Source of the DNA: Paludibacter sp.
Lineage (GTDB): Bacteria; Bacteroidota; Bacteroidia; Bacteroidales; Paludibacteraceae
Assembly: GCA_017882285.1 (NCBI GenBank)
Contig: JADGPS010000019.1
Location: 1 to 42,259, forward strand
Direction: 5' to 3'
DNA: 42,259 bases
The notes under the pieces are model-generated. The model was not told where the DNA came from, ran no database searches, and was given only the letters and a program-made list of their open reading frames with translations. This document shows positions 15,441 to 40,673 of the stretch, in pieces. Position numbers and translations under genes: made by a program. The first letter of the stretch is position 1. Every line of letters begins with the position of its first letter.

Positions 15441-17438
15441 ATGGTTGAATTGATAAATTTGAGTTGGATCATAGCATTATTGGCAGTGATTGCCCTGTTG
15501 CTTGTTCCTGCAAATATTAAAGCATACACGGCGGCTTTCGGCGTAGTTGCCAATGCAATAACGACAAGTTGGTTAGCTATTCTGGCACTAACCGGACAAT
15601 TGGTGAGTTTTACTTTTTATGGTGGCAACATCATGGGCGACATGCTAATCCGCGTCGACCAATTGTCCGCCTGGTTTATATTGATAATCAATTTTACCTG
15701 CATTACAGGGGTTTTCTATGGTTCTGGATATCTGAAAGCGTACGACAATTCCGCCAAAAAGCTCAGCATGCACTGGATATTATTTATCCTTTTTCAACTT
15801 TCGATGGTGTGGGTTTGTATGATTCAACATGGTTTGATGTTCCTGATTGCCTGGGAAATCATGTCGTTATCGTCGATGATGCTGGTTATTTTCGACTCAC
15901 ACAATCCCAAAACGTTGAAAGACGGAATAAATTACCTGGTGCAAATGCATATCAGCGTGGTGTTTCTGACCATTGGGTTTATCTGGGTCTATTTTCAAAC
16001 CGGTTCGTTTAGTTTTGATGCCTTTTCGACTTATTTCGGTTTGAACAGTAATATATGGCTTTTCCTTGTTTTCTTCGTGGGATTTGGACTAAAAGCCGGA
16101 TTTATTCCGCTGCACAGCTGGTTACCACACGCCCATCCGGCAGCACCTTCACATGTCTCCGGCGTGATGTCCGGCGTAATCGTCAAACTGGGAATCTACG
16201 GAATTTTCAGGGTGGCTTCCTATCTGAGAAGCGATAACCTGATGCTGGGGGAAATTCTGATCACAATATCCGTACTGACCGGATTATACGGAATTTTAAA
16301 TGCTGCTGTTCATCGTGACTTTAAAAAAATGCTGGCATATTGTACCATCGAAAATATAGGAATCATTGGTATCGGCATTGGTATCGGACTAATCGGGCTT
16401 GGTAATCATGTTCCAATTTTATATTACCTTGGTTTTGGCGGTGCGCTACTGCATGTTCTCAACCATTCGCTATTCAAATCCTTATTGTTCTATTCGGCAG
16501 GATCGGTTTACCAGCAAACCCACACACGCGATATGGAAAAATTAGGCGGTCTCATTAAAAGTATGCCCCGCACAGCAGTTATTTTCCTGATTGGAGCAAT
16601 TGCCATTGGCGGAATGCCTCCTTTCAACGGTTTTATCTCCGAATTTCTTATTTACAGCGGATTGATAGAAGGAATAAAGTTGCATGACATGACACAAATA
16701 ACTATGATGGTACTGACATTTGCAGGTTTGAGTATTATCGGAGGACTTTCGGTACTGACATTCACCAAAACTTTCGGTACTATCTTTTTAGGTACACAAC
16801 GACAACCCTTACAACATAAACCACATGAAGTTTCGTCGCTGATGTTGATTCCTCAATATGTTATCATAGTGGCAATGCTCAGCGTGGCCATTTTTCCCCG
16901 GATTTATTTAGAGGTGATCGGCAATATACTTTCGGGATTGACCAAAAGTACAATTATTCCTCAACCGGTTGAATTTGCTGGTTATATCTCCACCATGCAA
17001 AGTATCAGCCTGTATTCATTGCTATTTATTTGCACAATCGCTGTTTTCTGGGGAATCAGGATGCTGGCATTAGTCGGAAAATCGCAAGTGGTGGGTGCAA
17101 CCTGGGGATGTGGCTATACAGCGGGAACCAGCAAAATTCAATATACCGCTAAATCATTTTCCAAATCGTTGGGTAAGACATTCGATTTCATAGTCATTGA
17201 GAGGAAACAATATGAAGAACTGAAAGCAGGCGAAATTTTCCCAAAAGAAAAAAAATACACGTCGCATTACCACGACTTTTTTGAATTCCGGTTTATTCGT
17301 ATCATAACCAACCGGCTGATTTATTCCGCGAATTATTTCAAATTTATTCAAAACGGACGCATTCAATCCTATGTGCTTTATGGCATTGTGTTTATTATAG
17401 CAATTTTTATTCTAACTATCTTTAAAATCGTACCATGA
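15441..17438 (+). CDS. Antiporter-like proton-channel subunit, HyfB/NuoL-like (first copy)
   Basis: A 665-residue polytopic membrane protein of the NuoL/M/N-Mrp antiporter superfamily, expected to carry protons or sodium in a complex I-like enzyme. Visible conserved parts are AWEIMSLSSMM (the functional glutamate in TM5), HSWLPHAHPAAPSHVSGVMSG followed by the lysine in VIVKLGIYG (TM7), the HxxxHSLFKSLLFYSAG stretch (TM8), and PPFNGFISEFL. The C-terminus has the HyfB-type WGCGYTAGTSKIQYTAKSF, an internal soluble helix, and a final membrane segment. It overlaps the next gene by four bases (ATGA at 17435-17438) and is highly similar to it along its whole length, evidently by tandem duplication. 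Confidence 0.9.
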   Translation: MVELINLSWIIALLAVIALLLVPANIKAYTAAFGVVANAITTSWLAILALTGQLVSFTFYGGNIMGDMLIRVDQLSAWFILIINFTCITGVFYGSGYLKAYDNSAKKLSMHWILFILFQLSMVWVCMIQHGLMFLIAWEIMSLSSMMLVIFDSHNPKTLKDGINYLVQMHISVVFLTIGFIWVYFQTGSFSFDAFSTYFGLNSNIWLFLVFFVGFGLKAGFIPLHSWLPHAHPAAPSHVSGVMSGVIVKLGIYGIFRVASYLRSDNLMLGEILITISVLTGLYGILNAAVHRDFKKMLAYCTIENIGIIGIGIGIGLIGLGNHVPILYYLGFGGALLHVLNHSLFKSLLFYSAGSVYQQTHTRDMEKLGGLIKSMPRTAVIFLIGAIAIGGMPPFNGFISEFLIYSGLIEGIKLHDMTQITMMVLTFAGLSIIGGLSVLTFTKTFGTIFLGTQRQPLQHKPHEVSSLMLIPQYVIIVAMLSVAIFPRIYLEVIGNILSGLTKSTIIPQPVEFAGYISTMQSISLYSLLFICTIAVFWGIRMLALVGKSQVVGATWGCGYTAGTSKIQYTAKSFSKSLGKTFDFIVIERKQYEELKAGEIFPKEKKYTSHYHDFFEFRFIRIITNRLIYSANYFKFIQNGRIQSYVLYGIVFIIAIFILTIFKIVP

Positions 17439-19462
17439 ATCTGGTCTGGAGCTTTATACTTATTCCGTTCATAGCTATCTGCCTTATTCCTTTTCTTCAA
17501 CTGAAAGGAAAAGCCATTGCTGTTTACGGGACTGTAAGTATGATTGCCATCCTCACCAATTATCTGGCCATACAAGCATTAACAGGACAAAACTTTAACA
17601 TGACTTTGCCCGGAAGCCTGATAAGCGGTCCTATTAATTTACAAATAGATGCCCTTTCAGCCTGGTTTATATTAATTATCAACTTTGGTTTTATTACCGG
17701 AGGTTTCTATGGCCTGTTTTATATGAAAACATATGCAGACCAACCTAAGAATTTAAATCTGCATGGAATTCTTTTCGTGCTTCTTCAGGCTTCTCTGTTA
17801 AGCCTGTGTGCCATTCAAAACAGCATTGCCTTTTTGATTGCCTGGGAAATAATGGCTCTTTCGGCTTTTCTGAGTATTATTTTCGAACACGAAAAAGTTG
17901 CCACCATCAAAGCCGGTATCAACTATCTGATTCAGTCGCATATTTCTATTTTGTTTTTAATGATCGGATTTATTTGGGTAGCGGGCAAAACAGGTAGTTA
18001 CGATTTCAGTGCCATCCACAGTTATTCGTTGGCACATCCGGGTCCGCTCTCGCTCATATTGTTCCTATTCTTCTTTATCGGGTTTGCCATTAAAGCGGGT
18101 TTTGTTCCCTTTCACACCTGGTTGCCTTACGCGCATCCGGCTGCACCGGCACATATTTCGGGAATCATGTCCGGAATATTAATTAAAATCGGGATTTTCG
18201 GTATCTTACGCATGCTTCTACTTATTCCTGTAAATTACACAGCAATTGGAAGTCTTATTTTAATCATTTCGCTTATTTCCGGAATATATGGCGTGATGCT
18301 GGCTATTCTGCAACATAACCTGAAGAAACTGCTTGCCTACCACAGTATCGAAAATATTGGTATTATTGGCATCGGGATTGGATTGGGTTGCATAGGGTTG
18401 GGAATCAATAATCCGGTGCTTAGTTCGTTGGGGTTTGCCGGAGCGTTGCTGCATACGCTGAATCATTCGCTTTTTAAATCACTCTTATTCTTTACTGCCG
18501 GCAATGTTTATCAGGCAACCCATACGCTGGATATTGAAAAATTAGGCGGACTGGTCAAAAAAATGCCACAAACGAGCATTCTGTTTTTAATAGCTGCCCT
18601 TGCTATTTGCGGATTGCCACCGTTTAACGGATTTATTTCCGAATTCATTCTTTACACGGGTCTTTACAATTGGATACACAATGCACAAATGATTTCTTTA
18701 ATCAGTATCGTTTTTATAGTTATGGGATTGGCGTTTATCGGAGGACTGGCACTGATGTGTTTTACCAAAGCTTTCGGAGTAGTTTTCTTAGGAAATCCCC
18801 GGCATACATTCCATCATGAAGTAAAAGAAGTTTCGGGTTTTCAATTGGCACCGCTTTATGCAATTGCTGCGTTAATAATTATCATCGGGCTGTTTCCCAA
18901 GTTGTTTCTGGACTTATTGATAAAACCCGTTCAACTGTTTACGGGCTTACAACAGCTTCCTTTTGTTGCATTTCAGGGAAATGGGCTCGAAGTGCTGGTA
19001 TCCGTCAGTCATGCCAGCTGGTATTTGATAGGTTTGGTTTTAATCCTTTTAGGACTCAGAAAATGGTTGTTGCGGAATCGAACCATCACCGTTATGCCAA
19101 CCTGGGGATGCGGATATACGGCTCCAACGGCCAAAATTCAATATACAGCCAGTTCGTTTGTCAAGACTTACAGCAAACTGTTCGGTATGTTTTTCCTGAT
19201 ATTTAAAAAAGAGAAAGAAGTGCAGGGAATATTTCCGACTGATGCACATCTCGAGACAAAACCTTATGATAAAATTGAAAAATGGCTGATAGACTATCCG
19301 ACTGTCAATTTCAAATTATTTTTAGATCGTTTCCGTTTCTTTCAAAACGGTAAATTGCAATTTTATATCTTATACGGGATTATATTTATCATTTTAATTA
19401 TCAGCATCCCGCTGTTATACGACAAAGCTATCCAGTTCATTGAATTTTTAAAACAGCTTTAA
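17435..19462 (+). CDS. Antiporter-like proton-channel subunit, HyfB/NuoL-like (second copy)
   Basis: A 675-residue paralogue of the preceding protein with the same order of motifs: AWEIMALSAFL, HTWLPYAHPAAPAHISGIMSG, LIKIGIFGILR, HSLFKSLLFFTAG, PPFNGFISEFI and WGCGYTAPTAKIQYTASSF. Charged residues in TM5 (Glu), TM7 (Lys) and TM8 are kept, so both copies look able to conduct ions. Adjacent duplicated HyfB-like genes mean the complex may hold three antiporter-like subunits together with the HyfF-like protein, as complex I does (NuoL, M, N). Start ATG at 17435 overlaps the upstream stop, which implies translational coupling. Confidence 0.9.
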   Translation: MNLVWSFILIPFIAICLIPFLQLKGKAIAVYGTVSMIAILTNYLAIQALTGQNFNMTLPGSLISGPINLQIDALSAWFILIINFGFITGGFYGLFYMKTYADQPKNLNLHGILFVLLQASLLSLCAIQNSIAFLIAWEIMALSAFLSIIFEHEKVATIKAGINYLIQSHISILFLMIGFIWVAGKTGSYDFSAIHSYSLAHPGPLSLILFLFFFIGFAIKAGFVPFHTWLPYAHPAAPAHISGIMSGILIKIGIFGILRMLLLIPVNYTAIGSLILIISLISGIYGVMLAILQHNLKKLLAYHSIENIGIIGIGIGLGCIGLGINNPVLSSLGFAGALLHTLNHSLFKSLLFFTAGNVYQATHTLDIEKLGGLVKKMPQTSILFLIAALAICGLPPFNGFISEFILYTGLYNWIHNAQMISLISIVFIVMGLAFIGGLALMCFTKAFGVVFLGNPRHTFHHEVKEVSGFQLAPLYAIAALIIIIGLFPKLFLDLLIKPVQLFTGLQQLPFVAFQGNGLEVLVSVSHASWYLIGLVLILLGLRKWLLRNRTITVMPTWGCGYTAPTAKIQYTASSFVKTYSKLFGMFFLIFKKEKEVQGIFPTDAHLETKPYDKIEKWLIDYPTVNFKLFLDRFRFFQNGKLQFYILYGIIFIILIISIPLLYDKAIQFIEFLKQL

Positions 19463-19522
19463 ATAATTCAGAATATTTAATTAAAGAACAACTAAACGAA
19501 TCAACAACTAAACAACAATATT

Positions 19523-20428
19523 ATGCTGAGTTTTTTATTAATCATATTAGCTGCCGCTTTTTTTACAGGAATAATTATCCGTACTAAAAGTATTGCTTCG
19601 GGGCGAAAAGGACCCGGACTATTTCAGCCAATCAAGGATGTGATTCGCCTTTTCAAAAAAGGTACAGTTTACAGTGAGACTTCCAGTTTTGTATTCCGGA
19701 TTGCACCCACCATTTACTTTTCTTCCGTATTTGTAGCCATGTTGGTTGTTCCGTTCGGACAATCAAAAGGGCTTATCAGCTTCAATGGTGACTTTATTTT
19801 CTTTGCATACGTATTGGGATTAGGTAAATTTTTCAGCATTATCGGAGCAATGGATACAGGCAGTAGTTTCGAAGGGATGGGAGCAAGTCGCGAAGCGCTC
19901 TACTCGATGTTTGCCGAACCTGCATTTTTCATTTTGATGGGTTCGTTGGCTTTGCTGACCGGTCATACTTCTTTTCAGGAGATATTTGCAACGTTGCATC
20001 TCGGCTCGTCTATCACTTATGCATTGGGCGGTTTGGCTGCTCTTGTATTTTTAATGATTGCCATGATTGAAAACAGCCGTATGCCTTTGGATGATCCGAA
20101 AACTCATCTTGAACTCACCATGGTACACGAAGTAATGATTTTGGACAATAGCGGATTTGACCTTGGCTTAATACTGACAGCCGGTTACCTGAAATTTGCC
20201 ATTTACGGAGCAATCATCTTTAATCTGTTTAGTGGAACCATAAGTTATGGATATGCCATACCGATGTTTTTAGTGGTGCAGGCTTTTCTTGCTTTTGTTG
20301 TCGGAATGATCGAATCTTTTATGGCGCGATTCAGGATGAATCACAATGCCCAGTTTATCGTTGTTCTTTCGTCCGTATCTTTACTCATATTTTTCGGTGC
20401 CCTGCTTGTGTCGGGGAAATTTATCTAA
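19523..20428 (+). CDS. HyfC/NuoH-like membrane subunit
   Basis: A 301-residue membrane protein that in complex I and group 4 hydrogenases links the peripheral arm to the proton channel. Recognisable segments are GRKGPGLFQPIKDVIRLFKK near residue 26, GAMDTGSSFEGMGASREALY near residue 115 (the cytoplasmic loop at the arm interface), and NSRMPLDDPKTHLELTMVHE near residue 190, with the conserved acidic residues. About eight membrane segments are predicted by eye. Length matches HyfC/HycD. It starts 60 bp after the second HyfB-like gene and is followed by a CCCCTAA repeat. Confidence 0.9.
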   Translation: MLSFLLIILAAAFFTGIIIRTKSIASGRKGPGLFQPIKDVIRLFKKGTVYSETSSFVFRIAPTIYFSSVFVAMLVVPFGQSKGLISFNGDFIFFAYVLGLGKFFSIIGAMDTGSSFEGMGASREALYSMFAEPAFFILMGSLALLTGHTSFQEIFATLHLGSSITYALGGLAALVFLMIAMIENSRMPLDDPKTHLELTMVHEVMILDNSGFDLGLILTAGYLKFAIYGAIIFNLFSGTISYGYAIPMFLVVQAFLAFVVGMIESFMARFRMNHNAQFIVVLSSVSLLIFFGALLVSGKFI

Positions 20429-20430
20429 AA

Positions 20431-20452
20431 ACCCCTAAATCCCTTGAAGGGG
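20431..20452. repeat. CCCCTAA-type repeat, degenerate copy
   Basis: ACCCCTAAATCCCTTGAAGG with GGG following sits three bases after the HyfC-like stop codon. The two halves can pair (CCCCT...GGGG), a diverged member of the repeat family at 24235 and 40565. Confidence 0.6.
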
Positions 20453-20507
20453 ACTTAAGAGATGACAAATTATTAATTCTTCATTATTAATTTTTAATTA
20501 AGAACTT

Positions 20508-21140
20508 ATGTTACAAGTATTGCTTATTATTTTTCTGATTTCACTGTTTTACCTGTCCATTGCCAATCGCATGACGACTTATGTAAACGTGTTGGCTTTG
20601 CAGGGAGTTCTGCTTTTCTTTGTAGCGTTTTTAGAGTTGAAAAGCATCAACACGCTCAACCTGATATTAATTCTGTTGGAAACCATTATTTTTAAATCAT
20701 TAGCGGTGCCAATATTTTTAAAATATGTGCTCAAACGAAATCATATCACCCGTGAAGCAGAGCCTTATGTACCGAATTTTGTATCATTAATCATTACCAC
20801 GGTCATAGTGGTTACCACCATTTTGCTTTCAAATACCATGGAAGAAAGTTATTTAGACAAAATGTACTTTGTCGTGGCACTTTCTACTCTGTTTACCGGA
20901 CTTTATTTTATTGCATCGCGCAGAAAAATCATCACGCATGTTATGGGATATTTAGTCATTGAAAATGGTGTTTTTGTGTTGTCTTTGGCAGTTGGAAACG
21001 AAATGCCTATGTTGGTAAACTTGGGTATTATGCTCGATATTTTTGCCAGCGTATTGATTTTAGGTATCTTCCTGAATAAAATCGGGGATGTATTTAAAGA
21101 CATCGATGTAAATCAGCTTACAAATTTGAAAGACTATTGA
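20508..21140 (+). CDS. HyfE/NuoK-like membrane subunit
   Basis: A 210-residue hydrophobic protein with about seven membrane segments. Its C-terminal half resembles NuoK, with the buried glutamate in YLVIENGVFVLSLAVG and the end segment NLGIMLDIFASVLILGIF; its N-terminal half has LLETIIFKSLAVPIFLKYV. Known members (HyfE, about 215 residues) have this arrangement. It takes its expected position between the HyfC-like and HyfF-like genes. It probably contributes one of the small proton-path elements of the complex. Confidence 0.86.
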   Translation: MLQVLLIIFLISLFYLSIANRMTTYVNVLALQGVLLFFVAFLELKSINTLNLILILLETIIFKSLAVPIFLKYVLKRNHITREAEPYVPNFVSLIITTVIVVTTILLSNTMEESYLDKMYFVVALSTLFTGLYFIASRRKIITHVMGYLVIENGVFVLSLAVGNEMPMLVNLGIMLDIFASVLILGIFLNKIGDVFKDIDVNQLTNLKDY

Positions 21141-21232
21141 AGAATTTACAATTTAATCATTTACAATTAAAATACAGTAAACCTGGCTTTTACAACCAAT
21201 TAACTGATTAACCAATCAACAAATAACCATTT

Positions 21233-22663
21233 ATGATAGAAATATATTTAATAGGATCAGTTATAATTGGAACCCTGCTTTTTTTCAACCGTGGGAAAGC
21301 ATTAAATTACACCTTGATTTGGTTGTTTATCGCCTTACAGTGTGCATTCACCATCTATGCCTGTATGAATTACAACCAGACCGAATCGACCTATTTCACA
21401 TTCGATTCGTTGGGGATTATCATGTTATTGACTGCCACCATCATTTCCATTCCGGCAGTCATCCATAGCCACATTTACATCGAAGAAAGTGAAGAAAAGA
21501 CTCCACGCTCCAGAGCAACTTACTTTGGTGCATTGGTTATTTTAATAACGGCAGTTAGTTCAGCTTATCTGGCTAATCACATTGCAGTAGTTTGGATTTT
21601 TACCGAAATAACTACGTTGAGTGCTTCTGCATTGATTTATCATCACCGCAATAAGTTGGCATTGGAGGGAACCTGGAAATATATTTTTATATGCGCTATC
21701 AGCATTACCTTTGTTTTTATCGGAATTCTATTTCTAAGTCTTGCTTTCGCTAAAGTCAGTTCCGATGATTTATCTTATAAAAATCTGCTTGCTCATAGCG
21801 CATTATTAAATTTATCCTGGCTACGATTGGCATTCTTGTTTATCTTCACCGGATTTACAGCGAAGTTAGGACTTTTTCCTATGTTTACAGCTGGCGTGGA
21901 TGCCAAGGATAAAGCTCCCGGTCCTGCAGCGGCTTTACTTTCGAGTATCGTAATGTGTATGGGTTTTGTAGGTATTTTTCGCTTTTATGTTGTGGTGGCT
22001 AACACTTCTTTACTCCATTGGGCAAGTCTGGTTATTGGCATTGCTGCATTCATATCCTTATTCATTGCAGCAGTTTATATGATAAAGGTAAAGAATATTA
22101 AACGAATGATGGCTTACTCCAGCGTTGAACACATGGGATTGGTTATGTTGGGAATTGCAGCCGGAGGAATCGGTTATTATGCTGCCATTCTGCATATTGT
22201 TTTGCATTCATTTGTCAAGTCGAGCCTGTTCTTTCAGTACAATCAACTATACCGGGTATTTAAAAACAAGAACATCTATCAATTAGGTAATTATTTCAAA
22301 TACAATACTACCGGTGCCCTCGTTGTGCTGCTTGCATTTATAAGTGTTACTGCCATGCCTCCTTCGGGCATGTTTGTAAGTGAATTTCTAATCTTCCGTT
22401 CCCTGTTCGATTCGAACCAATTAATATTATTATTGGTGGTTTTATTGTTGCTAACACTTATTATCTGGGCGTTTGCCAAAAATATTTTCAAGATATTATT
22501 TATTCCGGCTGTAAATTTTGACGAATCTACCGTGCCGGCTTTAAGTCCCTGGAGATCAGTTTCGCAGTTTATTCTTATTGGTGGAGCTGCCTATCTTGGA
22601 TTAAACCCACCGTTGATTTTTGTAGATTTAATTAAAACGAGTATAATGTTATTACCGCATTGA
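21233..22663 (+). CDS. HyfF/NuoN-like antiporter-like subunit
   Basis: A 476-residue membrane protein of the same superfamily as the two HyfB-like subunits but distinct in sequence. Conserved segments are AVVWIFTEITTLSASALIYHHRN (TM5 glutamate), FTAKLGLFPMFTAGVDAKDKAPGPAAALLSS (TM7 lysine region), MMAYSSVEHMGLVMLGIAAGG and HSFVKSSLFFQYNQLYRV. PPSGMFVSEFLIF closes the core. Length fits HyfF rather than the longer HyfB type. It precedes the large-subunit gene by 72 bp. The function is ion translocation as part of the complex. Confidence 0.88.
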   Translation: MIEIYLIGSVIIGTLLFFNRGKALNYTLIWLFIALQCAFTIYACMNYNQTESTYFTFDSLGIIMLLTATIISIPAVIHSHIYIEESEEKTPRSRATYFGALVILITAVSSAYLANHIAVVWIFTEITTLSASALIYHHRNKLALEGTWKYIFICAISITFVFIGILFLSLAFAKVSSDDLSYKNLLAHSALLNLSWLRLAFLFIFTGFTAKLGLFPMFTAGVDAKDKAPGPAAALLSSIVMCMGFVGIFRFYVVVANTSLLHWASLVIGIAAFISLFIAAVYMIKVKNIKRMMAYSSVEHMGLVMLGIAAGGIGYYAAILHIVLHSFVKSSLFFQYNQLYRVFKNKNIYQLGNYFKYNTTGALVVLLAFISVTAMPPSGMFVSEFLIFRSLFDSNQLILLLVVLLLLTLIIWAFAKNIFKILFIPAVNFDESTVPALSPWRSVSQFILIGGAAYLGLNPPLIFVDLIKTSIMLLPH

Positions 22664-22735
22664 AAATATAGACTTTAAAACCAAGAGCCAAGAATCAAGA
22701 CTTTCTGACTCGTAACTAATCACTTGTAACTATTT

Positions 22736-24235
22736 ATGAACTATATCAGCATAAAAAACAATCAGACCATTTCTCTTTCGGATATTCCGGAAAGCAATTA
22801 TGAATGGTTTTATGACATGAACCTTGATTTGGTCCTTGGTCATACCGAACGGCATTGCGTGAATTATTTTGGGTATAAAGTGGGTAATAACGTTAAACTA
22901 ATTTGCTGCATTGCAGATGATTCCACTCATGAAATATTAGTATCTACCTGCCTGGTTCACAAAGCTCACGCCCTCGAATCGTTTTGCACTCAATTGTTAT
23001 GCTTTGAAAAATTCGAACGGGAAATTCACGAAAACTTTGGTATTAACTTTATAGACCATCCGTGGTTGAAACCTGTTCGTTACGCTTTCAACCGTGATGA
23101 TATGTCTCAAACGATGGACAATTATCCGTTTTACAGCATCGACAGCGAAGAATTGCATGAAGTGGGCGTCGGACCTATTCATGCCGGAATTATTGAACCG
23201 GGACATTTCAGGTTTATCTGTAACGGCGAACAAATTCTTCATCTCGAAATTCAGTTAGGATACCAGCACCGGGGTATCGAACAACTTTTTATCGAGAAAA
23301 AAAAGTTACTTCAACGTGCCACGCTGGCTGAAGATATTGCCGGCGATACGGTTATTGGACACAGCACCACTTTTGCACACGTTTGGGAAAGTTTGTGTGG
23401 CTTTGAGGCAAGCAGGGATATTGAATTTGCACGCACGTTGGCATTGGAACTAGAGCGTATGGCTGTTCATGTAAGTGATTTGAGCGGTGCTTGTACCGAC
23501 ATAGCCTATCAGCTGGGAAGTTCCGTTTTTGGCCGGCTTCGGACACCAATCATTAATTTTTTACAGGAATGGTGCGGAAACCGCCTGGGAAAAGGATGCA
23601 TCAGACCGGGACATAATCAATATCCTTTTACTCCTGCATTAGCGGATCGGCTAAGACAGGTATTGGATATTTTTGAACCTGAATATAACGAAATGGCAGG
23701 AAAACTATTTAAATTATCCAGTGCCCTATCGCGTTTTGAACGAACCGGAGTTGTTTCCAATGCCGATGCAATATCAATTGGTGCAGTAGGAATGACAGCT
23801 CGCATGACCAATCTGAACCGTGATATTCGTTCTTCCCATCCTTTTTCTCTTTATTCGGAATTAAATCATTTTCCGATTTTAAAACGGCATGGTGATGTTT
23901 ATTCACGGGTTCAAATACGGAAAAAAGAAATTGAGCAATCGCTCAACTATATCCGGAAATTAATTGCCGAAGTTCCTGCTCAACCTTTACAAACAGATAA
24001 ATTGAAAACGCCTCGTCCGAATTCCTTTTGCCTTTCGTTAGTGGAAGGTTGGCGGGGAGAAATTTGCCATTGTGCGCTGACCGACGAGAAAGGAGAATTG
24101 ATGCATTACAAAATCAAAGATCCTTCGTTTCACAATTGGATGGCATTGGCTTTATCAGTCAGAAATAATGAAATATCGGATTTTCCGATCTGCAACAAAA
24201 GTTTCAACCTTTCCTATTCAGGACATGATTTGTGA
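22736..24235 (+). CDS. NuoC-NuoD/HyfG-like large subunit without NiFe-ligand cysteines
   Basis: A 499-residue peripheral subunit with a NuoC-like N-terminal part (to about residue 130) fused to a hydrogenase large-subunit domain (QLGYQHRGIEQL at 173-184). In active group 4 hydrogenases the NiFe site is held by ERICGIC near the start and DPCxSC at the end. Here the aligned stretches are EDIAGDTVIGHS (199-210) and NLSYSGHDL (491-499): the four cysteines become A202, T205, S493 and G496. H209 and many structural residues remain. So the protein cannot bind a NiFe centre in the usual way and is best described as energy-converting hydrogenase-related (Ehr-like). There is no C-terminal extension for a maturation protease, which fits. 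Confidence 0.88.
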   Translation: MNYISIKNNQTISLSDIPESNYEWFYDMNLDLVLGHTERHCVNYFGYKVGNNVKLICCIADDSTHEILVSTCLVHKAHALESFCTQLLCFEKFEREIHENFGINFIDHPWLKPVRYAFNRDDMSQTMDNYPFYSIDSEELHEVGVGPIHAGIIEPGHFRFICNGEQILHLEIQLGYQHRGIEQLFIEKKKLLQRATLAEDIAGDTVIGHSTTFAHVWESLCGFEASRDIEFARTLALELERMAVHVSDLSGACTDIAYQLGSSVFGRLRTPIINFLQEWCGNRLGKGCIRPGHNQYPFTPALADRLRQVLDIFEPEYNEMAGKLFKLSSALSRFERTGVVSNADAISIGAVGMTARMTNLNRDIRSSHPFSLYSELNHFPILKRHGDVYSRVQIRKKEIEQSLNYIRKLIAEVPAQPLQTDKLKTPRPNSFCLSLVEGWRGEICHCALTDEKGELMHYKIKDPSFHNWMALALSVRNNEISDFPICNKSFNLSYSGHDL

Positions 24236-24258
24236 CCCCTAACCCCTAAAGGGGAACT
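24235..24258. repeat. CCCCTAA-type repeat, left arm of an inverted pair
   Basis: ACCCCTAACCCCTAAAGGGG plus three bases; it begins at the stop codon of the large-subunit gene. The reverse complement recurs perfectly over 23 bp at 24366-24390, and a diverged member lies between them at 24315-24336. The pair could fold into a large hairpin in the operon transcript. Confidence 0.8.
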
Positions 24259-24365
24259 TAATTACTTCAAGGCCAATAGTTCATTAAAGGTTGAAGTTAA
24301 CTAAAATAAATTTTCACCCCTTAGGGCAAGGGGTTAGTAATAATTCACAAAACAAAAGTAACTTC

Positions 24366-24390
24366 GTTCCCCTTTAGGGGTTAGGGGTTC
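24366..24390. repeat. CCCCTAA-type repeat, right arm of an inverted pair
   Basis: GTTCCCCTTTAGGGGTTAGG and the following GGT are the exact reverse complement of 24235-24257. It ends 10 bp before the small-subunit start, so folding could affect that gene's translation. Confidence 0.8.
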
Positions 24391-24399
24391 GTTAATATT

Positions 24400-25152
24400 A
24401 TGTTAGACAATATTAAAATAGTATATCATCAGGGAAAACAATTTATTCCAGATGTAAAAACGGTGACTGTCCCGGGAATTTTCAGAGGGCGACCCATTAT
24501 AAACACTGAAAAAGTGGACGAAAAAGAATTGAGCGCTTTGTGTCCCACAAATGCCATTTCCATTCATCCGGTAAGTATTGATTTGGGAAAATGTACTTTC
24601 TGCGGAGAATGCTCATTGCGCTTTCCAACTAAAATTACGTTTACAAAAGACTATAAATTAGCCACAAACGACCCTGAAAGACTGATTATCAAAGAAGGCG
24701 AAGACAAACCCGTAGAAGTTAATCTTGATTTGGTTCGAAGTGAAATTCACAGGATTTTAGGCCGATCATTAAAACTTCGTCAGATTTCGGCTGGTGGCGA
24801 TAACAGTTGCGAAATGGAGCTCAATGCTGCCAACAACGTGCAGTTTGATATGAGCCGGTATGGAATTGATTTCGTGGCTTCACCCCGACATGCCGATGGA
24901 ATTGTTATTACCGGTCCTATTACCCAAAACATGGCCAAAGCCGTACAAATATGTTACGATGCAACGCCTGAACCAAAAATTATTGTTTTGGTGGGAACCG
25001 ATGCCATTAGCGGAGGAATTTTTGCCGACTCACCCGCACTCGACCGTCGTTTTCTGGAGAAACATACTGTTGATTTGTATGTTCCGGGTAATCCTGCTCA
25101 TCCGCTGACAATTATAAATGGATTGCTGGATTTAACCCGAAAACTGAAATAA
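24400..25152 (+). CDS. NuoB/HyfI-like small subunit fused to a one-cluster ferredoxin domain
   Basis: A 250-residue fusion. The N-terminal ferredoxin-like domain keeps C48 (ALCPTNAI) and C65, C68, C71 (CTFCGEC), exactly the four ligands of one 4Fe-4S cluster of a two-cluster ferredoxin. The other cluster's ligands are gone (no CxxCxxC near residue 30; F75 replaces its last cysteine). The C-terminal domain has the hydrogenase small-subunit fold (SPRHADGIVITGPIT, 161-175), but the proximal-cluster ligands are D134, C137 (GGDNSCEME), D201 (VGTDAISGG) and N231 (VPGNPAHP): only one of four cysteines remains. Thus the usual electron path to the large subunit is absent. It ends the operon. Confidence 0.87.
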   Translation: MLDNIKIVYHQGKQFIPDVKTVTVPGIFRGRPIINTEKVDEKELSALCPTNAISIHPVSIDLGKCTFCGECSLRFPTKITFTKDYKLATNDPERLIIKEGEDKPVEVNLDLVRSEIHRILGRSLKLRQISAGGDNSCEMELNAANNVQFDMSRYGIDFVASPRHADGIVITGPITQNMAKAVQICYDATPEPKIIVLVGTDAISGGIFADSPALDRRFLEKHTVDLYVPGNPAHPLTIINGLLDLTRKLK

Positions 25153-26039: not shown

Positions 26040-27560
26040 ATGGTAAACATACTCATCGGATTGATTGCTTTAATTGCTGGAAGTGGAGGGACTTTCGTCC
26101 TGTTTCGCTTTTTCAACAAACGGTCAATGGAAGAAGCTGTAGCGGAAGCTGAGCTGCTAAAGAAAAACAAGCTTATTGAAGCAAAAGAGAAATTTATCGC
26201 CCTGAAAGTAGAACACGAACAACAAGTTCAGGAACGGAATGCCAAGATTCAGGTTGTAGAAGTCAGACTTCAACAGAAAGAGATGCAACTCAATCAAAAA
26301 CAAGGCGATGTACAACGTAAAATAAATGAAGTTGATGCTCAAAAAGAACATTTAGATATGCAATTAAATGGTCTTGATAGCAAGAAAAAAGAACTGGAAC
26401 ATTTGCATCGTCAGGCACAGACAGAGCTTGAAACCATTTCAGGATTATCAGCCGATCAGGCAAAAGAACGATTGATTGAAGCGTTGAAAGAAGAAGCCAA
26501 AACCGAAGCTATGTCGTATGTGAACGACATCATGGAAGAGGCAAAAATGACAGCCAATAAAGAAGCTAAGAAAATTGTGGTTCAGAGCATTCAACGGGTT
26601 GCCACCGAAGCAGCCATTGAAAACTCAGTAACAGTTTTTCACATTGAATCGGACGAAATCAAGGGACGCATTATCGGTCGCGAGGGTCGTAATATTCGAG
26701 CTTTGGAAGCAGCTACCGGTGTCGAAATTATTGTGGACGACACTCCTGAAGCGATTGTTCTTTCGGCGTTCGATCCGGTTCGTAGGGAAATTGCACGGTT
26801 GTCGCTTCATCAATTGGTAACCGACGGACGCATTCACCCTGCCCGTATTGAAGAAGTGGTGAACAAAGTTCGCAAACAAGTGGAAGAAGAAATTGTGGAA
26901 ATCGGGAAACGTACCACCATAGATCTTGGGATTCACGGATTGCATCCTGAACTGATTCGTCTGGTTGGTAAAATGAAATATCGTTCGTCGTACGGTCAAA
27001 ATTTGTTGCAACACTCGCGTGAAACAGCCAATCTTTGTGCCACAATGGCTGCGGAATTAGGTTTAAATCCTAAAAAAGCAAAACGCGCCGGACTGTTACA
27101 CGACATTGGTAAAGTGCCGGATGACGAGCCGGAATTACCGCACGCAATTTTGGGTATGCGTCTTGCAGAGAAGTATAAAGAAAAACCGGATATTTGCAAT
27201 GCTATCGGTGCTCACCACGACGAAGTGGAAATGGAAACGCTGATTGCACCTATTGTTCAGGTTTGTGATGCTATTTCAGGAGCACGTCCGGGAGCTCGTC
27301 GCGAAATTGTGGAAGCTTATGTAAAACGTCTGAACGACTTAGAAGCATTGGCACTATCCTATCCGGGTGTACTTAAAACGTATGCTATTCAGGCAGGACG
27401 TGAATTACGTGTGATTGTAGGTGCAGATAAGTTAGACGATAAAGAAACAGAGTTATTGTCGTTCGATATCGCCAAAAAAGTACAGGACGAAATGACTTAT
27501 CCGGGTCAGGTAAAAATTACGGTTATCCGTGAAACCCGTGCGGTAAGTTATGCGAAATAG
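26040..27560 (+). CDS. rny: Ribonuclease Y
   Basis: Membrane-anchored endoribonuclease that starts mRNA decay. The 506-residue protein has an N-terminal membrane helix (residues about 3-24), a long charged coiled coil (about 28-150), a KH domain from about residue 205 ([16 protein letters not shown]) and an HD domain with [11 protein letters not shown] near residue 352 and GAHHDEVEM near 394 supplying metal ligands. Length and domain order are normal. The leader is A-rich without a Shine-Dalgarno sequence, as usual in Bacteroidetes. A strong terminator follows, ending the core segment before the accessory island. Confidence 0.95.
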
Positions 27561-27737: not shown

Positions 27738-28241
27738 ATGGAATTGCAAATTATACAGAATAAGATATTCGAAATACGAGGACTAAAAGTAATTTTAGAC
27801 AAAGATTTAGCATTAATGTATGAAGTAACAACTGGAAACTTGAATAAAGCAGTTAAACACAATGCTGACAGATTCCCCGATGATTTTATATTTCAACTCA
27901 CAAACGAAGAATTTGACTTGATATTCCAAAATGGAACATCAAGTTGGGGCGGAACAAGAAAACTACCTTTTGCATTTACAGAACACGGTATAACCATGTT
28001 AGCAAGTGTGTTATGAAGTGAGAGAGCTATTGAAATAAACATTCAAATAGTACGTGCATTTGTTGCACTGCGCCAATACACACTTGGTTATGCCGAACTT
28101 AACCAGAAGTTAGAAACATTTATGCTGGAAACCAATATGCAATTTAGCGATATTTATCAGGCTCTGACCGAGATGGCAAGCCAAACCGAAAAAGATCAAA
28201 AACCAATTCCGCCAGTTGGATATTTGGCATATGAAAAATAA
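27738..28241 (+). pseudogene. ORF6N-domain gene interrupted by one in-frame stop
   Basis: The frame encodes an ORF6N domain protein (IQNKIFEIRGLKVILDKDL, RFPDDFIFQL, SSWGGTRKLPFAFTEHGITMLASVL), as found in phage and mobile-island proteins with DNA-binding roles. At codon 93 a TGA stands where relatives read Lys or Arg (SVL-stop-SERAIEINIQ). After it the frame stays open to 28241 with no other lesion. If the ancestral codon was CGA, a single C-to-T change explains the loss. The next gene (28248) is a tandem paralogue; their last ~170 bp are nearly identical, suggesting recent duplication or gene conversion. Readthrough or a short 92-residue product cannot be excluded. Confidence 0.75.
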
Positions 28242-28247
28242 AAAAGT

Positions 28248-28754
28248 ATGGAATTACAAATCATACAAAACAAAATATACGAAATTCGAGGTCAACGTGT
28301 CATGTTGGACTTCGATTTAGCTGAATTATACGAAACAGAAACAAAGCGTCTTAAAGAAGCCGTTCGTAGGAATCTTTCTCGATTTCCTGATGATTTTATG
28401 TTTGAGTTGAGTCCAAAAGAATGGGAAATCTTGAGGACGCAATTTGCGACCTCAAGTTGGGGAGGCATTCGTTATCAACCTTTTGCATTTACAGAACAAG
28501 GTGTTGCTATGCTTGCAAGCGTTTTAAAAAGCGAAACAGCCATACAAGTAAATATTCAAATTATCAGAGCTTTTGTAATTTTAAGACAATATGCTCTTGG
28601 TTATGCCGAACTCAATCAAAAATTGGAAACGTTCATGCTGGAAACCAATATGCAATTTAGCGATATTTATCAGGCACTAACCGAAATGGCAAGCCTAACC
28701 GAAAAAGATCAAAAGCCAATTCCACCAATTGGATATTTGGCGTATGAAAAATAA
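28248..28754 (+). CDS. ORF6N-domain protein, intact copy
   Basis: A 168-residue protein with an ORF6N domain over the first ~90 residues (IQNKIYEIRGQRVMLDFDLAELY, RFPDDFMFELSPKEW, SSWGGIRYQPFAFTEQGVAMLASVL), then a helical segment with INIQIIRAFVILRQ and a C-terminus ending PPIGYLAYEK. ORF6N domains are related to KilA-N and phage antirepressor-type DNA-binding proteins, and similar genes often sit inside restriction loci. Its target is unknown. It lies six bases after the interrupted copy and 34 bp before the KilA-N gene, so the three appear to form one unit. Confidence 0.84.
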   Translation: MELQIIQNKIYEIRGQRVMLDFDLAELYETETKRLKEAVRRNLSRFPDDFMFELSPKEWEILRTQFATSSWGGIRYQPFAFTEQGVAMLASVLKSETAIQVNIQIIRAFVILRQYALGYAELNQKLETFMLETNMQFSDIYQALTEMASLTEKDQKPIPPIGYLAYEK

Positions 28755-28788
28755 AAAATGTGGATTTCGAAATTAACACATAAAACAG

Positions 28789-29604
28789 ATGACCAAAAGT
28801 AAAACCATAAATATTGAAGACAAGGAAATACTGATTTATTCGAAGAATAATGAAGATTATATTTCGCTTACTGATATGGCACGAAGTCAGTTGGAAGATG
28901 TTATAATTATCAAATGGTTGAGCTTAAAAAACACAATAGAATATATTGGCGAATGGGAAGCTATGTATAATCCCGATTTTAATTATACCGAATTCGGTAT
29001 AATTAAAAATGCTTCAGGTGGTAATAATTTTGTATTATCAGTTAAGCAATGGATTGAGAAAACAAATGCCGTAGGTTTAACTGCCAAAGCCGGTAGGTAT
29101 GGTGGAACGTATGCACACAAAGATATTGCATTTCATTTTGGGATGTGGATTAGTCCAAAATTCCAGTTGTTACTTGTAAAAGAGTATCAACGCCTCAAAG
29201 ACGATGAAAATGACCGATTAAAATTGGAATGGAACTTTCAACGAACATTGTCGAAAGTGAACTACATTATACATACCGATGCAATTAAAGAAAACCTGAT
29301 TCCGGCTGAATTAACTCCTCAGCAAGTCAGTTATGTTTATGCTAATGAAGCAGATATGCTTAATATGGCTTTGTTTGGTAAAACAGCACAGCAATGGAGA
29401 ACCGTAAACCCAACATTGAATGGCAACATTCGGGATACTGCCAACATTGAACAGTTGGTGGTACTATCTAATATGGAAAGTATGAATGCAGTGCTTATTC
29501 ACCAAGGCTTATCACAATCGGAAAGACTGAAAGAGCTTAATAAAATGGCAATTATGCAAATGAAATCGCTTTTACACAATAATAAAATTCAAAGATTACA
29601 GTAA
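28789..29604 (+). CDS. KilA-N domain protein
   Basis: A 271-residue protein. Residues about 10-130 match a KilA-N domain (DYISLTDMARSQLEDVIIIKWL, VLSVKQWIEKTNAVGLTAKAGRYGGTYAHKDIAFHFGMW). The C-terminal half is helical with no recognised motif (KLEWNFQRTLSKVNYIIHTDAI, TPQQVSYVYANEADMLNMALFG). KilA-N proteins are phage-derived DNA binders; chromosomal copies next to restriction genes are frequent and may regulate or be hitch-hikers. It carries no nuclease motif. The structured RNA at 29652-29834 follows immediately. Confidence 0.86.
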   Translation: MTKSKTINIEDKEILIYSKNNEDYISLTDMARSQLEDVIIIKWLSLKNTIEYIGEWEAMYNPDFNYTEFGIIKNASGGNNFVLSVKQWIEKTNAVGLTAKAGRYGGTYAHKDIAFHFGMWISPKFQLLLVKEYQRLKDDENDRLKLEWNFQRTLSKVNYIIHTDAIKENLIPAELTPQQVSYVYANEADMLNMALFGKTAQQWRTVNPTLNGNIRDTANIEQLVVLSNMESMNAVLIHQGLSQSERLKELNKMAIMQMKSLLHNNKIQRLQ

Positions 29605-29651
29605 TAAATTCAACAAAAAAACAGACAATGATTTAATTTTCAATATACTAA

Positions 29652-29834
29652 AATAGCATTCTGCTATTGTTCGCGATGCCGAAACCTGAGAACTTTCATT
29701 AGGCGAACACAAGAATAGATTCAATAAGCAAAATGCTCATGCCGACCGGCGTGGGCTTTTGACTTATCATTCTTGTGTACCCTTCTCAGGGGGTCGGCAT
29801 CGGGTAAGGATTTAGTCCACGCTTTTTTGTGGAC
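29652..29834 (+). ncRNA. Highly structured RNA, candidate HEARO/omega RNA without an IscB gene
   Basis: A nested set of near-perfect helices spans this gene-free stretch: AATAGCA/TGCTATT (29652-29668); CGATGCCGA (29674) with TCGGCATCG (29794); CCTGAGAA (29685) with TTCTCAGG (29783); ACACAAGAAT (29707) with ATTCTTGTGT (29769); ATAAG and CAAAA with TTTTG and CTTAT; and GCTCATGCC-GACC-GGCGTGGGC (29735-29756). A final GTCCAC/GTGGAC hairpin closes at 29834. GTTCGC (29669) can also pair with GCGAAC (29703), a possible pseudoknot. The layered helices recall HEARO RNA, the omega RNA that precedes IscB genes, but the next gene is a helicase. The fold is seen directly; the family name is a memory-based guess. 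Confidence 0.6.
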
Positions 29835-29876
29835 AAAACTTACCTGAATAATGGCTGGATATCCAAATCCGAAGCC

Positions 29877-32800
29877 ATGAACCAAAAATTCTTTACCAAC
29901 CAGGACGAAAATACGCTGATTAATAAATTAGAAGGTATTTTAGAAAACAATCCTTCCACCAATTGCTTCGATGCGGTAGTTGGTTTCTTTCGGGCTTCAG
30001 GTTATTTCCAAATTAAACCCTTTCTCGGTAAAATAGATAAAATCAGAATCTTAGTTGGTATAGAAGCCGACAAGCTGATTGCTCAGGCTGCTCAAAAAGG
30101 CATATTATATTTTGGCGATGAGCAAGTTTCAAAAGATGAATTTCTATTAGCAGTTAAAAAAGACATCGATGAATCGGAATACAGCAAGCCGGTTGAAGAT
30201 GGCATTTTACAGTTAATCGATGACATTATCCAAAAGCGTGTTGAAATACGGGCACACCCAAGCCGAAAAATACACGCTAAAATATACCTTCTCTATCCCG
30301 ATAATTTCAATCAACACACGCTGAATGCAGCAGCCATTACAGGTTCAAGCAATCTCACCGGAAACGGATTGGGCATTGGTAACGACCGACAATATGAATT
30401 CAATGTACTGCTGAACGATAACGATGAGGTGGCTTTTGCCAAAGCGGAATTTGAAAAACTATGGGAAGAAGCCAAAGGAACTGAAATAACGGCAAATGAC
30501 ATAGAGAAAACCAAAACAGATACCTATCTGGCGGGTGATGTAACTCCTTATGAGGTGTATATCAAAACATTGATTGAGTATTTTGGCGATGCTATCGATT
30601 ATAGCATTGAAAACAATTTTGATTTGCCGGCCAATTTTAAACGCATGGAATATCAGTTGGATGCGGTACTCGATGGCTATAAAAAACTGATAAAATATGA
30701 TGGGTTTTTCTTATCAGACGTAGTAGGTCTTGGAAAAACGGTAGTTGCCACCATGATTGCCAAAAAGTTTCTGAATGAAAATGGAATCAATAATACCAAA
30801 ATTTTAGTCGTGTATCCGCCCGCAGTCGAAAAGAACTGGAAAAATACTTTTGCTCAGTTTGGTATCGACAAATTTGCAAAGTTTATTACCAACGGTAGCT
30901 TATCAAAAATTTTAGATACCGATAATTATAATTACTGGAATGCAGAGGAATACGACCTGATTTTGATTGACGAATCGCATAAGTTCCGCAATCACACAAC
31001 CGGCATGTTCCGCGAAATGCAGGAAATATGTAAATACCCCCGCATTAACAGCGGTAAGATTGAAGGAACAAAAAAGAAAATTATATTAATTTCGGCAACG
31101 CCTCTCAACAACTCGCCCGAAGATTTATACAATCAAATCCTTTTGTTTCAAAATCCACGCCGCTCTACTTTGCCGGGTGTGAGTAACTTAACGGCATTTT
31201 TTGCACCCAAAACAAAGCGATTCAAAGAATTACGTTCCGACAAGAATTTAGATGTAGATGCCTTGTTGAAACTTTACGAAGAGATTCGCGAAAAGGTGTT
31301 GAAACCAATCACAGTACGCCGTACCCGTACTGACATTGAAGGCGTGAGCCGCTACAAAGCCGATGTGGGCGATTTTCCTAAAATTGAAAAACCGGATAAA
31401 TTAGAATATTTGCTCGATGAGAAATTATCCGTATTGTTCGACCATACGGTTAAAATGCTTATTGACAAAACCGAGGGATTAAAATACAGCCGTTATCAGG
31501 CTATTGCCGGACTGTTACCCGAAATTCAGGATATGTATTACGAACAAGCGGAAAGAGTATCCAAGTCCCTGGCATTTATCATGAAAAATTCGTTGGTTAA
31601 ACGACTCGAAAGCAGTTTCGAAGCTTTTCGCATTACCCTGAACCGCTTCCGGTTAGCCAACGAGCGTATGATTCAAATGTTCAAAAATGGCAATATTTAC
31701 ATTGCGCCCGATTTGAATTTGAATAAATTCTACGAAAAAGGTTGGACTACCGAAGAAATTGAAGCCAAAATAAACGAAGCCAAAGAGATTGATCCTAAAA
31801 ATAACATCTTCAAACCCCAAGATTTTAAAGATACATTTCATCCCCAATTGCTTGCCGACCAGCAGATTTTAAATGAGTTGGCAGCAAGTTGGAACAAAGT
31901 AACACACGACCCCAAATTAGATGTGTTTCTGGAAAAATTAGAAACTGAATTTTTCAATAAAGAACGGAACATCGGACAAAAGTTAGTGATTTTTTCCGAA
32001 TCGACTGACACGGTGGAGTATTTAAAGAAAAACATCAAACGTACTGATGTATTATCTATTTCAGCCGATAACCGGAATAAAATGTTCGAGGTGATTCAAG
32101 CCAACTTCGATGCCAACTACGACCCAGCCAAACAAAAAAACGATTATCATATAGTAATCAGCACCGAGGTTTTGTCCGAAGGTGTTAACCTCCACCGCAG
32201 CAATATCATTATTAACTACGATACGCCATGGAACTCTACCCGACTGATGCAACGCATTGGGCGTATCAACCGTATCGGGTCGGTTGCCAAAAACCTATAT
32301 AACTACGTGTTTTATCCATCCGCCAAAGGAAATGCGCAAATTAATTTAGTCAACAATTCATTGGCTAAAATTCAGGCATTTCACACTGCTTTTGGCGAAG
32401 ATAACCAGATTTATTCCACCGACGAAATTGTTGACCTTAACCTCGATAAACTTTTTGAAGAAGGTTTACCTGCCGAAGAAATAAACAAAGAATTGCAATA
32501 CCTTGAATTTATTCGGGAATTTCGCAACAAACAGCCCAAGGAATTCAAACGCATTGAAAAACTAAGTTTACGAAGTAGAACCGGACGAGATGCCAGAAAA
32601 TTTGGTGAAACATCAATTAGCAACGGTTCGTTGGTTTTCCTGAAAACCCGACAACTGAACAGTTTCTATTATGTAACCGACAGTACCAGCGAAGAACTCT
32701 CCACTTTGCAGGCTTTGGACTATTTCTGTGCCGAAAAAGACGAACCCCGTGTAGCTCGTATCGAACAACATCACGCACAGGTTGATAAAGCAAAGAAAAC

Positions 32801-33155: not shown

Positions 33156-33169
33156 AACCACAAAATACT

Positions 33170-40564: not shown

Positions 40565-40588
40565 TACCCCTAACCCCTAAAGGGGAAT
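40565..40588. repeat. CCCCTAA-type repeat, left arm of an inverted pair
   Basis: ACCCCTAACCCCTAAAGGGG then AATT, five bases after the coiled-coil gene. It pairs with 40647-40670 with a single mismatch. Confidence 0.8.
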
Positions 40589-40646
40589 TGGATTAGTTAA
40601 TTCTATCAAAAAGATTTTTTAAATAAAAAATAAAATAAAGATAACT

Positions 40647-40670
40647 TAATTCCCCGTTAGGGGTTAGGGG
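40647..40670. repeat. CCCCTAA-type repeat, right arm of an inverted pair
   Basis: AATTCCCCGTTAGGGGTTAG and GGGT end only three bases before the lutB ATG, so this repeat occupies the place of the ribosome-binding region. Confidence 0.8.
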
Positions 40671-40673
40671 TAT

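Follow-up and report, generated by a model that had tools for sequence, protein, structure and literature searches.

The window analyzed here, positions 1 to 42,259 of contig JADGPS010000019.1 of the Paludibacter sp. assembly GCA_017882285.1, contains an operon of seven consecutive genes on the + strand (15441-25152) for a complex resembling complex I and formate hydrogenlyase (FHL), of the kind known as energy-converting hydrogenase-related (Ehr). Positions follow the numbering of the window and residue numbers are those of its own proteins; the host genome comprises 3.18 Mb in 143 contigs and is 98% complete. The operon starts with two HyfB-like genes for antiporter-like subunits of the NuoL/M type, hyfB1 (15441..17438; Pfam PF00361, E 3.7e-54) and hyfB2 (17435..19462; Pfam PF00361), followed by hyfC, for a NuoH/HycD-like coupling subunit (19523..20428; Pfam PF00146, E 3.8e-37), hyfE, for a small membrane subunit with a NuoK-like C-terminal part (20508..21140), and hyfF, for a third antiporter-like subunit (21233..22663; Pfam PF00361). 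The hyfE product scored under the cut-offs of both the NCBIfam hydrogenase 4 membrane subunit model (71.3 bits, cut-off 136) and Pfam PF00420 (23.8 bits, cut-off 26.1). The last two genes code for a large subunit of 499 aa similar to NuoC plus NuoD and to HycE (22736..24235; Pfam PF00346 and PF00329) and, after a spacer, for a small subunit of 250 aa in which a ferredoxin domain is fused to a NuoB/HycG-like domain (24400..25152; Pfam PF01058). A separate complex I, encoded in contig C21, accounts for the other NuoD and NuoB matches of the genome.

A preliminary description of this operon claimed that the NiFe ligands of the large subunit are gone, and the alignment to HycE and HyfG of Escherichia coli bears this out for all four of them. 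The first ligand site (L1), RVCGIC in the E. coli proteins, reads DIAGDT in the window, with A202 and T205 at the cysteine positions (EDIAGDT, residues 199-205, 23330..23350, in place of RxCGxC), and the second (L2), DPCYSC in E. coli, reads NLSYSG, with S493 and G496 (NKSFNLSYSGHDL followed by the stop codon, 24194..24232, in place of DPCxxC). After NLSYSG the protein continues with HDL and stops; the C-terminal extension of HycE and HyfG is thus absent and there would be nothing to cleave after metal insertion. No CxxC pair, which could have provided the ligands from elsewhere, occurs anywhere in the large subunit in 81 rows of the clade described below, counting the window and three duplicate genomes. 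Assembly of the NiFe site requires HypD, and no match to it (PF01924) appeared in the host genome, 98% complete, while the control was positive in 4 of 14 genomes; NiFe chemistry is therefore unlikely in this host. The protein is homologous to FHL HycE (phmmer E 8.2e-35), and the best fold for its AlphaFold2 model (AF2; mean predicted local distance difference test score, pLDDT, 84.8, with poor stretches at 146-156, 480-484 and 487-499) was 7z0s_E, the HycE of FHL, with a Foldseek template modelling (TM) score of 0.83.

The small subunit is changed at its clusters. In the alignment to HycG and MbhJ, the ligands of the proximal [4Fe-4S] cluster, at the N2 position of complex I, correspond to D134, C137, D201 and N231, as had been proposed, so that a single cysteine, C137, is kept; these residues lie at 24799..24810 (D134-N-S-C137), 25000..25002 and 25090..25092. 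Also as proposed, the ferredoxin part retains the full ligand set for one cluster (C48, C65, C68 and C71; 24541..24612), and the positions for its other cluster read V, gap, L and F75, with no cysteine. The AF2 model of the small subunit (pLDDT 86) had as best fold 6cfw_J, MbhJ, over the NuoB part, with a TM score of 0.80 by target length and 0.47 by query length. The small subunit model drew on sequences from 64 of the 80 scan loci, and the large subunit model on 66 of the 69 listed large subunits.

The extent of these losses was assessed in a 104-row alignment of small subunits, comprising the window, 23 fetched operons and 80 loci from a scan of genome contigs; three rows are second copies from the same genomes (pairs L064/L096, L065/L098 and L066/L112). 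Positions 134, 137, 201 and 231 read DCDN in 86 rows, DCEN, DCDY and DGDN in one row each, and CCCC in 15, so that the proximal cluster was lost in 89 of the 104 sequences (D type) and its ligands were complete in the remaining 15 (Cys type). Among the D-type rows, D134 is thus invariant (89/89), and C137, D201 and N231 are each found in 88/89, with one Gly, one Glu and one Tyr, respectively; the DCDN pattern is far beyond chance. The cluster with ligands C48, C65, C68 and C71 is complete in all 104 rows. Conversely, all 89 D-type rows have lost cluster I of the ferredoxin. Of the 15 Cys-type rows, 11 have it complete, L085 keeps it in part, and L077, L080 and L084 have lost it.

Searches of other genomes gave full-length relatives in 7 of 149 from the family and in 14 of 394 from the phylum; in the latter set, two further genomes matched over the NuoB part only. 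The contig scan retrieved at least 532 relatives. The best 80 of these were kept and all were of the D type; they are the nearest relatives only and give no estimate of frequency. The nearest named loci are from metagenome-assembled genomes of Paludibacter, and the clade is spread across Bacteroidota; most of its members come from metagenome-assembled genomes, and it is also present in the isolate Niastella vici DJ57. Within the genus the operon is patchy, being present in 12 of 47 other genomes, and nine pattern matches in viral contigs contained no relatives. The preliminary description had considered that this copy might simply be decaying. However, the proximal loss is shared by 86 rows of the clade, each from a different genome and the window among them, and a comparison of the window with four near relatives gave nonsynonymous divergence (dN) of 0.10-0.13 against synonymous divergence (dS) of 1.33 and 1.63 in two of them, being too high to compute in the other two; dN/dS was around 0.08 in the two computable pairs. 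Gene order is complete in 62 of 85 clade loci, 49 of which have at least two hyfB genes, and in the remaining 23 the sequence available ahead of the small subunit gene is shorter than 5 kb. A putative broken copy, L130, was discarded as such because the stop within its translation is simply where the gene ends. In L102, L132 and L152, a small open reading frame (ORF), resembling by eye a four-helix bundle, lies between the genes for the large and small subunits.

A tree of 60 large subunits, rooted on the long NuoCD branch, included 34 of the 78 non-duplicate clade rows (the window, L067, L071, three variants and 28 randomly chosen rows). The 34 D-type rows were monophyletic, with support of 100/97, and their sister was L072 (100/100), in which all three cluster ligand sets are present; the other cysteine-keeping Bacteroidota branch below. 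Following this tree, the proximal loss has a single origin among the sampled Bacteroidota and defines the clade. The 57 rows without Ni ligands grouped apart from HyfG, HycE and NuoCD at 100/99.

The same branch also gained two cysteines in the large subunit, C444 and C446 (C444-H445-C446, 24065..24073), each present in 77 of 78 clade rows, with Ser in L133 and Thr in L140 as the exceptions. Their frequency in the Cys-type rows from Bacteroidota is 0/15 for C444 and 1/15 for C446, whereas the intervening H445 is invariant in both groups (78/78 and 15/15). Other residue shifts in the large subunit accompany this gain; the list of clade-specific residues drew on 12 Cys-type rows (all except L079, L085 and L086), while the C444 and C446 counts use all 15.

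Beyond Bacteroidota, none of the four proximal cysteines is left in the Ehr of Allomeiothermus silvanus plasmid pMESIL01 (Deinococcota), which has T, D, E and S at these positions and retains the same single ferredoxin cluster. Because the replacing residues differ, this points to a separate loss, although its branch is long and leaves its placement unsure, as occurs with those of Rhodococcus, Variovorax and Methylocalor. Two copies of the Ehr region are present on pMESIL01 (L182 and L187); they share one accession for the small subunit protein and were counted once. The preliminary description could not say whether losses in the small subunit were known, and these data answer it in part: there is a clade-defining loss in Bacteroidota and a loss with other residues in Allomeiothermus. 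Altogether, 10 of 11 Ehr-type small subunits from plasmids keep the proximal cysteines, and their large subunits lack Ni ligands. Six of these operons (L180, L181, L183, L184, L185 and L188, from proteobacterial and Rhodococcus plasmids) have short small subunits without a ferredoxin domain and with the proximal cysteines kept; no ferredoxin gene is listed for them in the gene tables of PLSDB, which are incomplete. The eleven include L190, from a plasmid of Caballeronia sp. SBC1, a distant Ehr-like system with SGVDT and NEASFGLTISG as its L1 and L2 replacements and with proximal and ferredoxin cysteines intact.

The preliminary description also held that the proton-channel subunits keep their charged residues, which proved correct for both HyfB subunits and for most of HyfF. 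Residues E139, K218, K249 and E401 of HyfB1 are the equivalents of NuoM E144, K234, K265 and E407, and they are present in 44/44, 44/44, 44/44 and 43/44 of the clade rows assigned to hyfB1; the corresponding E138, K220, K251 and E403 of HyfB2 are each found in 57/57 of the clade rows assigned to it, and E125, K211 and E384 of HyfF in 68/68 each. These Glu and Lys channel pairs are therefore near-invariant in the clade, whereas FHL HycC has lost the Lys of transmembrane helix 7 (PMC9474812), also missing in our alignment. The claim did not extend to HyfE, where no NuoK-type Glu is found in the alignment of the window protein; they are also lacking from E. coli HyfE.

The catalytic chamber and its connection to the membrane show a distinctive set of residues. 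The loop DDPKTHLELTMVHE of HyfC (residues 190-203, 20090..20131) corresponds to the pattern D(D/N)PxTHLELTMxHE, present in 12/12 other Bacteroidota rows and in 5/6 plasmid Ehr rows (in the remaining one, T is replaced by S), and THLELTM-type loops are absent from the NuoH, HyfC and HycD sequences used for comparison. As judged from the alignment, this is the Ehr-type ND1 loop, standing in for the acidic loop of complex I and FHL; in the FHL structure, the ND1 loop connects the soluble and membrane arms (PMC9474812). In the large subunit, D204, H209, E437, R440, E442, K488 and S493 are found in 78/78 rows lacking the proximal cluster and in 15/15 Bacteroidota rows keeping it. R440 aligns with HycE R478 and E154, the Glu of the β1-β2 loop, with HycE E193, which were described as the canopy arginine and the proton donor, respectively (PMC9474812). 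HycE D529, a canopy Asp termed strictly conserved in the same source, corresponds to N491 in the window and to D, N or S in its relatives. The chamber residues and the HyfC loop are thus alike with or without the proximal cluster, indicating that the core was not forfeited upon cluster loss.

We favor, with about even confidence, the interpretation that the operon codes for a functional, conserved Ehr-type complex that would translocate H+ or Na+ with the electron wire to its catalytic chamber cut. It builds on what was observed directly, namely the ligand sets, their conservation, the single origin among the Bacteroidota sampled, the low dN/dS and the mostly intact channel residues. It is further supported by the loss of all four proximal cysteines in Allomeiothermus, by the six plasmid operons with no listed ferredoxin gene, and by the absence of HypD matches in the host genome and of a recurrent partner gene beside the operon. 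The clusters of FHL are less than 14 Å apart and its proximal cluster, G1, occupies the N2 position (PMC9474812); with such spacing, removal of the cluster at this position would probably leave a gap between the kept ferredoxin cluster and the chamber that electrons could not tunnel across quickly. Bacteroidota Ehr that keep the cluster have the same chamber and coupling motifs, so that the core function they share seems independent of electrons arriving by the N2 route. Under this model, the chamber between the large subunit and HyfC would bind, and perhaps turn over, some compound independently of electrons from the N2 cluster, and the resulting loop movement or proton release, involving the E154 loop, R440, GD204T, NK488S and the THLELTM loop of HyfC, would drive or gate the passage of H+ or Na+ through the two HyfB, HyfF and HyfC subunits. 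The remaining ferredoxin cluster might then be structural or serve as a redox sensor.

Several observations weigh against this interpretation. The ferredoxin cluster is complete in every aligned row, which argues for some electron role, and the arrival of C444 and C446 together with the proximal loss hints at a replacement site. Likewise, the proximal cluster is kept in most of the other Ehr sampled (15 Bacteroidota rows and 10/11 from plasmids), making a redox role likely for Ehr generally. The membrane arm is not entirely intact either, and here the earlier claim about channel charges does not hold: the equivalent of NuoM K265 in HyfF is C242, a position with N in 60 and C in 8 of the 68 clade rows, and the HyfC of the window has K193 and H195 where NuoH, and likewise E. 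coli HyfC and HycD, have the two Glu residues E216 and E218 (NuoH numbering). Lastly, L1 of Allomeiothermus reads GGE rather than GDT, and the distant L190 deviates at L1, at L2 and in the HyfC loop (STHIEVYMIEE), so that the motifs are not common to every Ehr-like complex.

The first alternative, possible but held only tentatively, is that D134, C137, D201 and N231, perhaps with C444 and C446, bind another metal or a non-standard Fe-S cofactor in or close to the N2 position, and that electrons would still flow from the ferredoxin cluster to some substrate. Its strongest facts are the invariant ferredoxin cluster and the two cysteines gained on the branch of the proximal loss, and it also agrees with the near-invariance of the four positions, three of which have side chains that readily bind metals. 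Conversely, Asn is a poor cluster ligand, and the T, D, E and S of Allomeiothermus imply that there is no common ligand set. A bolder version, which we consider unlikely, is that this is a complex I relative acting on neither hydrogen nor quinone, in which on one branch the N2 [4Fe-4S] cluster was swapped for an Asp/Cys/Asp/Asn site of hard ligands at the interface of the small and large subunits, aided by C444 and C446, which would run non-redox metal catalysis, such as a hydration, or ligand binding to power or gate ion movement; if so, the coupling mechanism of complex I would work without electron transfer.

It is quite improbable, in turn, that the complex has a regulatory or accessory role, docking as an ion-gating adaptor on another oxidoreductase, for instance the complex I of its own host, or on a soluble enzyme, with the chemistry provided by that partner. 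The host does have a separate complex I, and in two genomes of the same family (L067 and L069) the Ehr operon is directly upstream of a complex-I-type pair of small and large subunit genes, but no neighbor gene was present at more than 8 of the 88 loci, and the most frequent one is rny-like. Finally, the idea that the operon is a relic of a hydrogenase or Ehr, on its way to losing function and kept only by chance, could be entertained from the three sites without ligands and the patchy distribution in the genus, but it is very hard to believe with the same proximal loss in 86 genomes, the low dN relative to dS and the genes in order wherever enough upstream sequence is available. The preliminary description had hesitated between a different electron input, a different substrate pocket and no redox chemistry; the present results narrow this choice and do not settle it.

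It has long been asked how complex I couples electron transfer to the pumping of ions; on their way to the active site, electrons pass through the N2-position cluster last. A widespread natural complex that has the coupling loops and most of the channel residues, and no N2 ligands, is thus a test of which parts of the machinery need electrons. Additionally, this clade cannot carry out any proposed Ehr reaction for which electrons must pass the proximal cluster. This conserved form of Ehr without ligands for the N2-position cluster appears to be new; Ehr without Ni ligands were already known. No description of cluster loss in the small subunit of Ehr appeared in the available portions of the literature searched, although an earlier mention is possible; those of PMC8076601 and PMC12361115 do not cover Ehr complexes.

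The genes around the operon were surveyed as ORFs of at least 100 aa within up to 10 kb, where contigs allowed, in 88 loci that include the three duplicate genomes and many short contigs. The commonest neighbors were a rny-like gene (judged by eye to encode RNase Y) and ispG (identified in the window copy by an NCBIfam match). In the window and in several relatives, ispG, on the opposite strand, and the rny-like gene flank the operon (13330-15114 and 26040-27560 in the window). Conserved neighbors were rejected as a functional clue, the commonest being housekeeping genes beside the operon in the genus of the window. Some genomes with the genus code of L067 and L069 (L087-L089) contain the complex-I-type pair of small and large subunit genes and lack the Ehr operon.

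The spacer between the genes for the large and small subunits (24236..24399, + strand) is outside the machine and consists of a dispersed, palindromic repeat resembling repetitive extragenic palindromic (REP) sequences, of the CCCCTAAAGGGG type, with 99 matches in the host genome, including itself; a further copy is found at 40567-40671 of the window. Downstream of the operon, region 27738-36547 contains ORFs that resemble by eye phage-type ORF6N/Rha-like genes, as well as two large proteins of 1108 and 1125 aa, the first helicase-like by eye, and its general aspect, also by eye only, is that of a mobile or defense region.

Comparison with known systems places the complex of the window, on the evidence of its sequence, within the Ehr kind, as anticipated in the preliminary description: it is homologous to group 4 hydrogenases, lacks both CxxC motifs, is co-encoded with a membrane arm of the HyfB/C/E/F type and branches on the hydrogenase side of complex I. 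It is not a group 4 [NiFe] hydrogenase, for which the four cysteine ligands are absent and HypD was not found, nor a complex I, given the absence of the N2 cluster with the tandem cysteines of NuoB. With complex I it shares a homologous Q-module and antiporter-like subunits with most of the NuoM-type Glu and Lys retained, and it differs in the absence of N-module genes from the operon and of N2 ligands, and in its THLELTM ND1 loop. Its NuoB-like part is nearest to MbhJ of Pyrococcus furiosus by sequence and fold, although MbhJ retains the cysteines and Mbh is a NiFe hydrogenase. The set and order of subunits, hyfB-C-E-F-G-H/I, the fold of the large subunit, the loop Glu and the canopy Arg are as in Hyc and Hyf of E. 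coli; unlike these, the complex of the window lacks NiFe and proximal cluster ligands, HyfD, HyfA and the C-terminal extension of the large subunit, and has one ferredoxin cluster in a ferredoxin fused to the small subunit. Ehr complexes have been described as group-4-like, lacking Ni and Fe ligands and of unknown function (PMC6349859; PMC7304191; PMC10284858; PMC4378227), and Nitrospira was reported to have a group 4 large subunit that lacks the motif (PMC12542776). Ligands for the proximal [4Fe-4S] cluster, seen in most of the Ehr sampled, are lacking in the window, and in the available parts of the sources they are not stated as a defining feature of Ehr. Ehr proteins of Geobacter sulfurreducens reached higher levels on formate than on hydrogen (PMC7894505), and their abundance was also higher in a syntrophic coculture (PMC8691401). 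Compared by its description in the parts of the sources available, the Ehr of this species (GSU0739-0745) resembles that of the window in its group-4-like large subunit without Ni ligands and its complex-I/Hyf-type membrane subunits; unlike it, the complex of the window additionally lacks the proximal [4Fe-4S] cluster and one ferredoxin cluster, and carries the D/C/D/N pattern together with C444 and C446.

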